Below the pieces are notes generated by a model. The model saw only the letters and a list, made by a program, of their open reading frames with translations, was not told the origin of the DNA and did no database searches. Made by a program: the position numbers and the translations under genes. A DNA stretch of 41,365 nt, taken from NCBI RefSeq assembly GCF_016901675.1, contig NZ_JACJKU010000005.1, positions 1-41,365 on the forward strand, written 5' to 3'. Positions 29,540 through 31,351 of the stretch are shown piece after piece. Source of the DNA: Limosilactobacillus coleohominis. Its GTDB lineage: Bacteria > Bacillota > Bacilli > Lactobacillales > Lactobacillaceae. The number at the start of each line of letters is the position of its first letter. The first letter of the stretch is position 1.

Positions 29540-30877
29540 TTATTTTTGGTTCTTACGGTAAAATTTTTTAACAAAATATAGAATTGGTAATCCAACAATT
29601 ACAATTCCGATGAACAGAATAACACCACTTGGGTCATTCATTATTTCACTAACTAATACGAAGATACCACCAGCAATTGCAATTATAGGAACGAACGGGT
29701 AAAGCGGAGTCGAGAAAGGACGTTGAACGTTCTTGTTGCGTTTCCGGAGGATGAACACACCAAAGAAGGCTAATAAGTAGAAGCAGTAAACAGTAAACAC
29801 ACAGAGGTCAGATAAGTGGTCAGGATCAAAGAATACCATCATGACAAACGCTAATACAACAATAAAAATTGTTGCGGTAACAGGAGCTTTACCCTTAGGA
29901 CTGAGGTACGATAAGAATTTCGAGAAAGGAATATCTTCACGCTTAGCCATTGCATAGACAATCCGGGGGAAGGTTAACATTTTTCCATTGAGTGTTCCCA
30001 TCATGGAAATGATAATTCCTGCCGATAAAAGCTTACCACCAATTTGTCCAAAGGCTTTGGTAGCCAAATAATCGGTTGTGTTTTCGCCTAAACGATGAAT
30101 GGTTTGAGCAGGGAGAAAACGTAAGATACCAACGGTAATTAATGTATAGATAATCAAAACAGCAGTAATTCCAAAGATAATTGCTTTTGGAAGAAGTTTT
30201 TGTGGGTTCTTCATTTCACCACCAAGGTTAGCGATTAAGATCCAGCCATCGTAACCAAAGAGGGTGGCAAGAACAGCAACCCCGAATCCACCAGAAGTTT
30301 GTTGAACTTCACGAATAGTTTGTCCAAAAGCATCCTGGTGTCCCCAGAAAAGGCCAAAAATGATAATTGCAGCAATCGGAACTAATTTTCCAATTGTAGT
30401 AATGATGGAGAAAATGGCACCAACCTTATTTTCAAGTAGGTTCATAAGACCAATTAAGCCGACTGTAATGATTGCTAATGGAATTCGCCATTCGGTACCC
30501 AATCCAAAAAAGTTGGCCATTAAAATACTCATGAAGCCGGCAACCGAGGCAATAATTGCGGGACCGTAAACGATAATTTGCATCCAGCCAGCGAGGAAGC
30601 CGAGAATCCGTCCATAAATATTTTCAATATAGACATAAAGACCACCAGTATAAGGCATTTGAGCACCGATTTCTGCGACCGTTAAGCCTCCAGTCAATGT
30701 AATGACACCACCAAAGACCCATGCAAGGATTGCCATTGTCGAATTACCAGCACTATCCAAAACAGAGCCTTGTTTAAAGAAGATTCCCGAACCAATAATT
30801 GTGCCAATTACAATCGAAATCGCCGAACCAAAGCCAAGCGAACGTTTCAATTCCTCTGTGGGTTGTTTTTCCTGCAT
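29540..30877 (-). CDS. steT: APC-family amino acid exchanger, SteT-like (Ser/Thr)
   Basis: A 445-residue integral membrane transporter with about 12 hydrophobic segments. The first helix carries the APC/LAT signature IGTIIGSGIFFKQGSVL, followed by GGLTVAEIGAQMPYTGGLYVYIENIYG and WMQIIVYGPAIIAS, very close in pattern to Bacillus subtilis SteT (serine/threonine exchanger) and the L-type transporters. ATG 30877 follows GGAGG by eight bases. A serine-rich leader peptide and an attenuator precede the gene, which supports serine or threonine as substrate. It is leftward, followed by hemH after a palindrome. Confidence 0.88.
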   Translation of the reverse strand: MQEKQPTEELKRSLGFGSAISIVIGTIIGSGIFFKQGSVLDSAGNSTMAILAWVFGGVITLTGGLTVAEIGAQMPYTGGLYVYIENIYGRILGFLAGWMQIIVYGPAIIASVAGFMSILMANFFGLGTEWRIPLAIITVGLIGLMNLLENKVGAIFSIITTIGKLVPIAAIIIFGLFWGHQDAFGQTIREVQQTSGGFGVAVLATLFGYDGWILIANLGGEMKNPQKLLPKAIIFGITAVLIIYTLITVGILRFLPAQTIHRLGENTTDYLATKAFGQIGGKLLSAGIIISMMGTLNGKMLTFPRIVYAMAKREDIPFSKFLSYLSPKGKAPVTATIFIVVLAFVMMVFFDPDHLSDLCVFTVYCFYLLAFFGVFILRKRNKNVQRPFSTPLYPFVPIIAIAGGIFVLVSEIMNDPSGVILFIGIVIVGLPILYFVKKFYRKNQK

Positions 30878-30904
30878 AATAAATTCCTCCGTTTCTTTTG
30901 AACA

Positions 30905-30967
30905 CAATAAAAACCGACCCTTTCAATCAATAAGCAGTTAATAGCTTAGTGGCTGAAAGAATCGGTT
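30905..30967 (-). terminator. attenuator terminator in the steT leader
   Basis: On the minus strand AACCGA (30967-30962) and CTTTCA (30959-30954) pair with TGAAAG (30925-30920) and TCGGTT (30917-30912). A 2x2 internal loop separates them, TAAGC/GCTTA pair in the apical part, and TTTTATTG follows. It lies between a leader peptide and the steT ribosome binding site, where it must be passed to express steT. A competing pairing is possible: GGTTGAGTGA (31012-31003), the end of the leader reading frame, pairs with TCTTTCAGCC (30960-30951), which contains the 5' arm. Confidence 0.8.
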
Positions 30968-31002
30968 CATTGATTATTATTATAATTTAATGAATACCAA
31001 AA

Positions 31003-31077
31003 TCACTCAACCACAATCATAGATGATGAGGCTGAGGAAGAGGACATATTAAGCTTTGCAAGATTTAATTGTAACAT
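31003..31077 (-). CDS. serine-rich leader peptide for steT attenuation
   Basis: A 24-residue reading frame starts at ATG 31077, seven bases after a perfect AGGAGGA ribosome binding site. It ends at TGA 31003. The peptide is MLQLNLAKLN followed by MSSSSASSSMIVVE: seven Ser codons within eight (TCC TCT TCC TCA GCC TCA TCA TCT). A good promoter lies upstream and a terminator starts 36 bases after its stop. A Ser-codon run before an attenuator and a Ser/Thr exchanger gene fits classical ribosome-stalling attenuation as in trp and his leaders. It has no other visible role. The coding signal is strong, the mechanism inferred. Confidence 0.8.
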   Translation of the reverse strand: MLQLNLAKLNMSSSSASSSMIVVE

Positions 31078-31107
31078 GATAACATCCTCCTTTTTTTGAT
31101 TGACATT

Positions 31108-31136
31108 AGAATACCATTAGAAAATAATAAGCGCAA
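31108..31136 (-). promoter_or_regulatory. promoter of the leader peptide-steT transcript
   Basis: On the minus strand -35 TTGCGC (31136-31131), 17 bases, extended -10 TGGTATTCT (TATTCT at 31113-31108). A further TATAAT at 30984-30979, between leader and attenuator, has no good -35. Confidence 0.6.
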
Positions 31137-31198: not shown

Positions 31199-31312
31199 GT
31201 GGTTAAATATGACTCTGCCTAAGACTCAGGTGGCGCAAGCCTTAATAATTACCTGCCGAGGAAGAAATGAAATGTTCCTTCTCTATGTCTGCCGGTCATA
31301 GGGATTTTTTTA
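31199..31312 (+). ncRNA. L10 ribosomal protein leader with terminator
   Basis: The leader of rplJ in Firmicutes binds L10(L12)4 and attenuates transcription. Here the hairpins include CAGGT/ACCTG with an inner GGC-GCAA-GCC (GNRA loop) and GAGGAAG/CTTCTC. They are followed by CTATG (31283-31287)/CATAG (31296-31300) and GGATTTTTTT, the terminator. The order and position match the known L10 leader family. Confidence 0.85.
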
Positions 31313-31351
31313 TAAATCCGTACCAAAATAAAATACAGGAGGTGTAATTTC

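Follow-up and report, generated by a model that had tools for sequence, protein, structure and literature searches.

Attenuators of the trp, his, thr and leu type in Proteobacteria share a common layout, i.e. a short open reading frame (ORF) rich in one amino acid, mutually exclusive helices 1:2, 2:3 and 3:4, and an intrinsic terminator in front of the regulated gene. The passage of a 2013 paper that lists the amino acid attenuators in Rfam names His, Leu, Thr and Trp, with Ile/Val and Phe being described elsewhere, and serine is not in that list (PMC3766115); the choice of regulatory codons is treated in a passage of PMC1183508. For Firmicutes, passages in two studies report histidine leader peptides from the B. 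cereus group, Peptostreptococcaceae and Erysipelotrichales (PMC2965389, PMC9413887). Like the element analysed here, these are peptide attenuators where others use T-boxes, but they belong to histidine genes and to other lineages. Thus, the remark in the original prediction that amino acid genes in Firmicutes usually rely on T-boxes needs a qualifier. T-boxes are nevertheless close in function, as, according to a passage in PMC2494555, the orthologue of ykbA (a Ser/Thr exchanger gene) in the B. cereus group carries a threonine T-box, where the same kind of transporter (SteT/LAT type) is controlled by aminoacyl-tRNA supply. Unlike the element described below, T-box RNA binds the tRNA directly and without a leader ORF.

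Here, we analysed 41,365 nucleotides from Limosilactobacillus coleohominis (the window), where a leader ORF bearing a serine-codon run, a terminator and a transporter gene follow each other on the minus strand. We consider it very probable that this element is a ribosome-mediated transcription attenuator of the trp type that would sense serine via charged tRNA-Ser. It differs from the proteobacterial attenuators in its serine run, its transporter target, its Lactobacillaceae host and the lack of an Rfam match at gathering score, and compared with known attenuators its amino acid, its lineage and its target are all new. No serine leader peptide was among the matches listed in a literature search that omitted most subscription journals. 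At Rfam gathering scores, no T-box (stem I, specifier loop, antiterminator) was matched in the window, and neither Thr_leader nor any other amino acid leader was matched in the window or in the 18 loci scanned out of the 38 with a leader (see below). For the window, Rfam gives a single match, an L10_leader (31200-31319, plus strand, 71.8 bits), which is divergent from the serine leader; this RNA family also occurs near the transporter in several relatives.

Leader ORF, terminator and transporter gene

The leader ORF (MLQLNLAKLNMSSSSASSSMIVVE, stop codon TGA; 31003..31077, minus strand) was identified from the ORF list and from the serine run that it has in common with 38 of 59 named homologous loci. 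It comprises 24 codons, is preceded by AGGAGG and encodes seven serines among eight residues (SSSSASSS), the regulatory codons TCC TCT TCC TCA GCC TCA TCA TCT being located at 31021..31044 (minus strand) according to sequence and conservation. Among the 46 short ATG ORFs in the window that are preceded by a ribosome-binding site (RBS) it is the only one with at least six serines in eight residues, and in 20 dinucleotide shuffles none of 1296 such ORFs reaches this value.

On the same strand, folding yields a terminator hairpin (3:4, 30911..30968) with -27.7 kcal/mol for 30968-30911 and -25.5 kcal/mol for its inner part, followed by the U-run TTTTTATT at its foot (30906..30913). Behind it lies the putatively regulated gene (29540..30877, minus strand), which encodes a transporter of 445 residues that can be assigned to the LAT family (SteT/BasC-like) by Pfam, NCBIfam and its solved relatives. 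The Pfam match is AA_permease_2 (6.5e-57), the top NCBIfam hit is TIGR00911, an L-type transporter (192 bits, under the cut-off of 701.8), the best solved relatives are 9h76/6f2g (4e-88), and the nearest named homologue is 94% identical. Structure 6f2g is, as we assume, that of BasC, an Ala/Ser/Cys exchanger. From the family alone we infer a substrate of the serine/threonine type. Taken together, the original prediction described this arrangement correctly: the 24-codon frame with a good RBS and seven serine codons among eight was found at 31077-31003 (minus strand), the terminator is strong and carries a U-run, a SteT-like gene lies behind it, and leader, terminator and transporter are in the proposed order.

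Its description of the promoter as near-consensus was too strong. A -35-like hexamer TTGCGC (31131..31136) and an extended -10 element (TGG TATTCT, 31108..31116) can be read from the minus-strand sequence, but the resulting TTGCGC-17-TATTCT, with TGG before TATTCT, has 7/12 consensus matches, and a simple consensus scan of the window reported neither the leader promoter nor its terminator, which is why folding and conservation were used instead. As TTG..-17-TATTCT is the best box ahead of 26 of 39 leaders (the window and the 38 named loci, counted without a null model), a promoter ahead of the leader is plausible.

Serine run and alternative helices

In the 38 named loci that carry the leader arrangement the ORF with its serine run is located about 140-210 bases upstream of the transporter gene. 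The other 21 loci are without it, one of which (L066) has no upstream DNA and is thus unassessable, leaving 20 assessable loci without the element. The leader is present in every locus labelled Limosilactobacillus except for L. gastricus (L036) and in some labelled Lactobacillus, e.g. L. hamsteri (L050); by our scan, it is missing from loci of Paucilactobacillus, Liquorilactobacillus, Pediococcus, Loigolactobacillus and Fructilactobacillus, which are among the 21. A contig labelled as a Bacteroides sp. metagenome-assembled genome (L032) has a Lactobacillaceae-like locus and is probably misbinned or mislabelled.

Five codon positions encode serine in 35, 37, 38, 39 and 36 of the 39 leaders, with varying codons. 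At codons -2, -1, 0 and +3 a hand count gives 33 synonymous versus 10 non-synonymous departures from the commonest codon, switches from TCN to AGY included. Serine codons were thus found conserved with changing bases, as the original prediction had proposed to check. The good RBS and the conserved serine core could also indicate a functional small peptide, i.e. a signal or a bacteriocin, unrelated to transporter control. However, outside the Ser/Thr run, which is the part that is kept, the peptide varies widely, both termini (N and C) included, as does its length (17-25 codons), and in all 39 cases the ORF lies ahead of a terminator and a transporter gene, which makes such a role extremely improbable.

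The RNA of the region 30900-31100 is more stable than its shuffles (z -5.2). Pairing analysis places segment 1 (CTCAGCCTC, 31028..31036) within the serine codons and segment 2 (GTGGTTGAG, 31006..31014) at the end of the ORF, and the two pair to form hairpin 1:2. Segment 2 can instead pair with segment 3 (TTCTTTCAGCCACT, 30948..30961), the 5' arm of the terminator, as indicated by duplex calculation and alignment. Here, 9 of 10 positions of GGTTGAGTGA and TCTTTCAGCC pair as part of a longer duplex of -14.5 kcal/mol, and the register of this antiterminator is constant across species. An outer stem, P1, is formed by AATCAAAAA (31093..31101) and TTTTGGTA directly after the stop codon (30995..31002), as supported by duplex calculation and a species-swap test, although in the window itself it is weak (-4.4 kcal/mol). 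All these elements are on the minus strand, and in the MFE fold of the window P1 encloses both 1:2 and a helix between RBS and codon run. Thus, the layout proposed originally holds for the pairing of the leader end with the segment that contains the 5' arm, i.e. 2:3, and for the terminator, but had overlooked the protector hairpin 1:2 and P1.

Helix 1:2 shows compensatory changes. In an alignment of 31 sequences (8 near-duplicates dropped) 96.4% of its cells are paired as compared to 23.7-45.2% when the strands are slid; double changes occur in 38 cells versus 8.4 in shuffles (0/500), and five of the nine pairs change on both sides. Paired cells, double-change cells and covariation score each exceed all 500 shuffles; the number of pairs with double changes does not (54/500). 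For 2:3 79.0% of the cells are paired (33.5-55.4% when slid) with modest covariation, the number of pair types not being beyond shuffles (126/500). RNAalifold independently yields 1:2 and 3:4, and 12 of the 17 pairs have double changes, so that the compensatory changes among relatives that had been suggested as a check are found in both helices. In four similar leaders (L028, L029, L034, L037) two adjacent pairs and a codon flip together from TCN to AGC, preserving both pairing and serine. When arms are swapped between species, the energy of 1:2 changes from -15.6 to -12.0 kcal/mol and that of P1 from -6.7 to -4.7 kcal/mol, with 0/5000 permutations being as good in either case, and the loss for 2:3 is smaller (-9.9 to -9.0 kcal/mol, 12/5000); relatedness of the species is still included in these swap and shuffle statistics. 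A terminator hairpin with U-run is present for 39 of 39 leaders, the scripted bounds being imprecise in 9 of them, where they overrun the U-run or include neighbouring pairs.

The RBS of the leader (AAGGAGG, 31080..31092, minus strand) is complementary to its own serine-codon run, as indicated by sequence, swap test and MFE fold. In the window, 31081-31092 is complementary to 31037-31048, and the same holds for most of 67 leaders elsewhere, the pairing being weak in L040, L047 and L183; the complementary sequences are GGAGGTTG with CAACCTCC and GGAGGTCA with TGACCTCC. In the threonine/mixed set described below (n=29; L190, one of 30 threonine leaders, had no anchor and was dropped) the native pairing has -12.2 versus -10.2 for swapped partners (0/5000), i.e. 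RBS and codon run clearly coevolve, and in the serine set (n=39) the values are -10.7 and -10.2 (114/5000). Moreover, TCC makes up 81 of 244 leader serine codons versus 53 of 606 in window ORFs of at least 150 codons, a preference that could arise because the codon run pairs with the RBS. tRNA choice was considered as the cause of the TCC/ACC preference and rejected: 18 of the 27 tRNA-match loci in the window's genome were scanned and gave one tRNA-Ser (CGA), which is too incomplete, RBS pairing being an equal explanation.

This pairing opens another reading, namely that the element is an RNA-only switch, e.g. a hairpin bound by a protein or a ligand, and that the serine codons are a by-product of CCTCC/CTCAGCCTC pairing, since some of them lie within helices and the TCC enrichment can be explained by pairing alone. 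Yet serine is kept where CCTCC is lost (TCA TCT AGC TCA AGT TCC in L040), and all 39 leaders have their best segment-1 anchor in frame, a result obtained when the search, initially limited to in-frame anchors, was repeated with all frames allowed, whereas the offset between stop codon and segment 2 differs. In addition, the run becomes threonine in the sister elements along with the downstream gene, and at gathering scores Rfam gives no match to the element in the window and in 18 of the 38 loci. We thus regard an RNA-only switch as improbable and the serine codons as the regulatory signal of an attenuator.

Predicted switch

At the level of sequence, these comparisons establish a leader ORF, a serine run and three mutually exclusive helices (1:2, 2:3 and 3:4), and the element may well work like trp-type attenuation, whose structural features it displays as far as sequence can tell: a short ORF with an RBS and a run of the relevant codons, an intrinsic terminator between this ORF and the gene, an antiterminator 2:3 that is exclusive with the terminator, and a protector 1:2 in which segment 1 overlaps the regulatory codons, although the truncated RNA of the window folds into 2:3 instead when no ribosome is present. 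If serine is plentiful, the ribosome would reach the stop codon and cover segment 2, so that terminator 3:4 would form ahead of the transporter gene. If Ser-tRNA is short, the ribosome would stall in the serine run and hide segment 1, leaving segment 2 free to capture segment 3, and transcription would continue into the transporter gene. When the ribosome is absent, folding would favour 1:2 in most relatives, but not clearly in the window.

When the serine codons are masked by a ribosome, RNA ending before segment 4 is predicted to form 2:3 in 37 of 39 leaders; with the ribosome masked at the stop codon 2:3 forms in 0 of 39, a result that is largely built in as the mask covers segment 2. Without a ribosome, 30 of the 39 truncated RNAs fold into 1:2; 2:3 takes its place or is formed in addition in 13 of the 39, including the window. 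Once the RNA is complete, equilibrium favours the terminator in each modelled state for 38 of 39 leaders, the exception (L031) being due to a mis-set boundary in the script, and thus the decision must be made kinetically, like that of trp. Comparative genomics supports the original interpretation as serine attenuation, the response to Ser-tRNA charging, i.e. the switching itself, being a prediction.

Threonine leaders and taxonomic range

The original picture comprised the serine leader and missed a sister element: covariance-model searches revealed leaders with threonine codons (e.g. MQIYNDSIIHHLTSTSTTTTITVVE) that have the same layout and precede a ThrP-like permease, for which ThrP is the top NCBIfam hit (557-565 bits for the three proteins tested, under the cut-off of 850). 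The genome of the window itself contains a threonine-type leader (MQLHTVHLYSTSTSTKVV) before a ThrP-like permease (L108; G000:C234, 2447-2551, minus strand), and the loci found in named genomes include Pediococcus stilesii, Ligilactobacillus agilis, L. reuteri and L. vaginalis. A closer look at 21 leaders, of which 19 precede ThrP and 2 with mixed runs precede LAT homologues, showed in every case a 1:2 pairing (6-9 of 10 positions), a terminator with U-run and a 2:3 duplex of between -8 and -19 kcal/mol. Covariation lends no support to 1:2 in the threonine/mixed alignment of 19 sequences, where this helix is nearly invariant.

The leader residue tracks the type of transporter, with Thr leaders before ThrP and Ser leaders before LAT. 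A census of L067-L195 gave 81 distinct leaders passing the filter, 47 of them Thr-rich and all before ThrP homologues, and 32 Ser-rich and 2 evenly mixed, all before LAT homologues; the counts are not independent as the genomes overlap the named set. Eleven more loci were inspected by hand: eight (L177, L179, L180, L186, L086, L092, L093, L096) have a leader before an ORF that is LAT-like, judged from the start of the protein, and in the three weak matches the leader is absent. More distant LAT homologues (L118, L119, L176, L180, L186, L192; 46-51% identical where measured) have mixed Ser/Thr runs, which suggests intermediate specificity.

These mixed runs before LAT homologues in other genera bear on the signal itself, which in a genuine attenuator might be a general slow-down of translation or the joint supply of serine and threonine instead of serine specifically. 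Threonine replaces some of the serines in L038 and L041 (TSSSTTTTS, TSSSTTTS), and the threonine T-box of the ykbA orthologue would fit such a signal as well. Nevertheless, the run is nearly pure serine in the window and in most of the 39 leaders, and ThrP leaders are Thr-rich. Thus, we consider a general or joint signal rather unlikely and prefer serine as the signal of the leader in the window.

Within the genus, a covariance model of the serine leaders found matches in 44 of 50 genomes (E <=0.01), frequently at two sites. Family-wide, it hit 48 of 396 genomes from 8 of 40 genera (E <=0.001), of which 45 genomes in 6 genera remained after inspection. The three false ones (L194, L195 and L227) have, just like L193, no leader with a Ser/Thr run. 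With the model of the threonine leaders, 49 of the 396 genomes of the family, from 7 of 40 genera, gave matches, which include serine leaders. A sample across the order yielded 8 matching genomes out of 295, all within Lactobacillaceae, and one across the phylum yielded a single genome out of 398, the window's own. In the order-wide sample the serine model matched 13 of 295 genomes, four of them outside the family (L223-L226), but these have no Ser/Thr leader and look like chance or ordinary terminator matches. Seven weak matches (E >0.001; L131-L135, L140, L141) lack a leader apart from a chance ORF in L132, and matches on the opposite strand at the same places reflect hairpin symmetry. All inspected matches that hold are in Lactobacillaceae; as both models are sequence-bound, distant relatives could be missed.

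T-box-like matches, under the Rfam gathering score, precede the homologous transporter in L056 and L060-L062, in tandem in L060 and L062. Their UGGA bulge presumably points to a tRNA with U73 such as tRNA-Thr. By eye, the specifier could read ACC in L056 and L061, but L060 and L062 read otherwise, and thus we make no claim on it.

Based on these findings we think it likely that Lactobacillaceae possess a family of paired leader-peptide attenuators, serine leaders for LAT-type transporters and threonine leaders for ThrP-like permeases, which share one RNA architecture and in which the codon run, and hence the sensed amino acid, is retuned to the downstream transporter, placed at sites that are occupied by T-boxes in some relatives. 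In the absence of translation, the regulatory codons would also mask the RBS of the leader inside a three-way junction closed by the outer stem. If this is true, serine joins the amino acids sensed by leader peptides, and leader-peptide attenuators control transport in lactobacilli. The natural series of serine run, mixed run, threonine run and T-box may then reveal how the specificity of an attenuator changes or how an attenuator is swapped with a T-box, and the leaders would be a practical pointer to what the transporters carry in those gut and vaginal bacteria that depend on imported amino acids.
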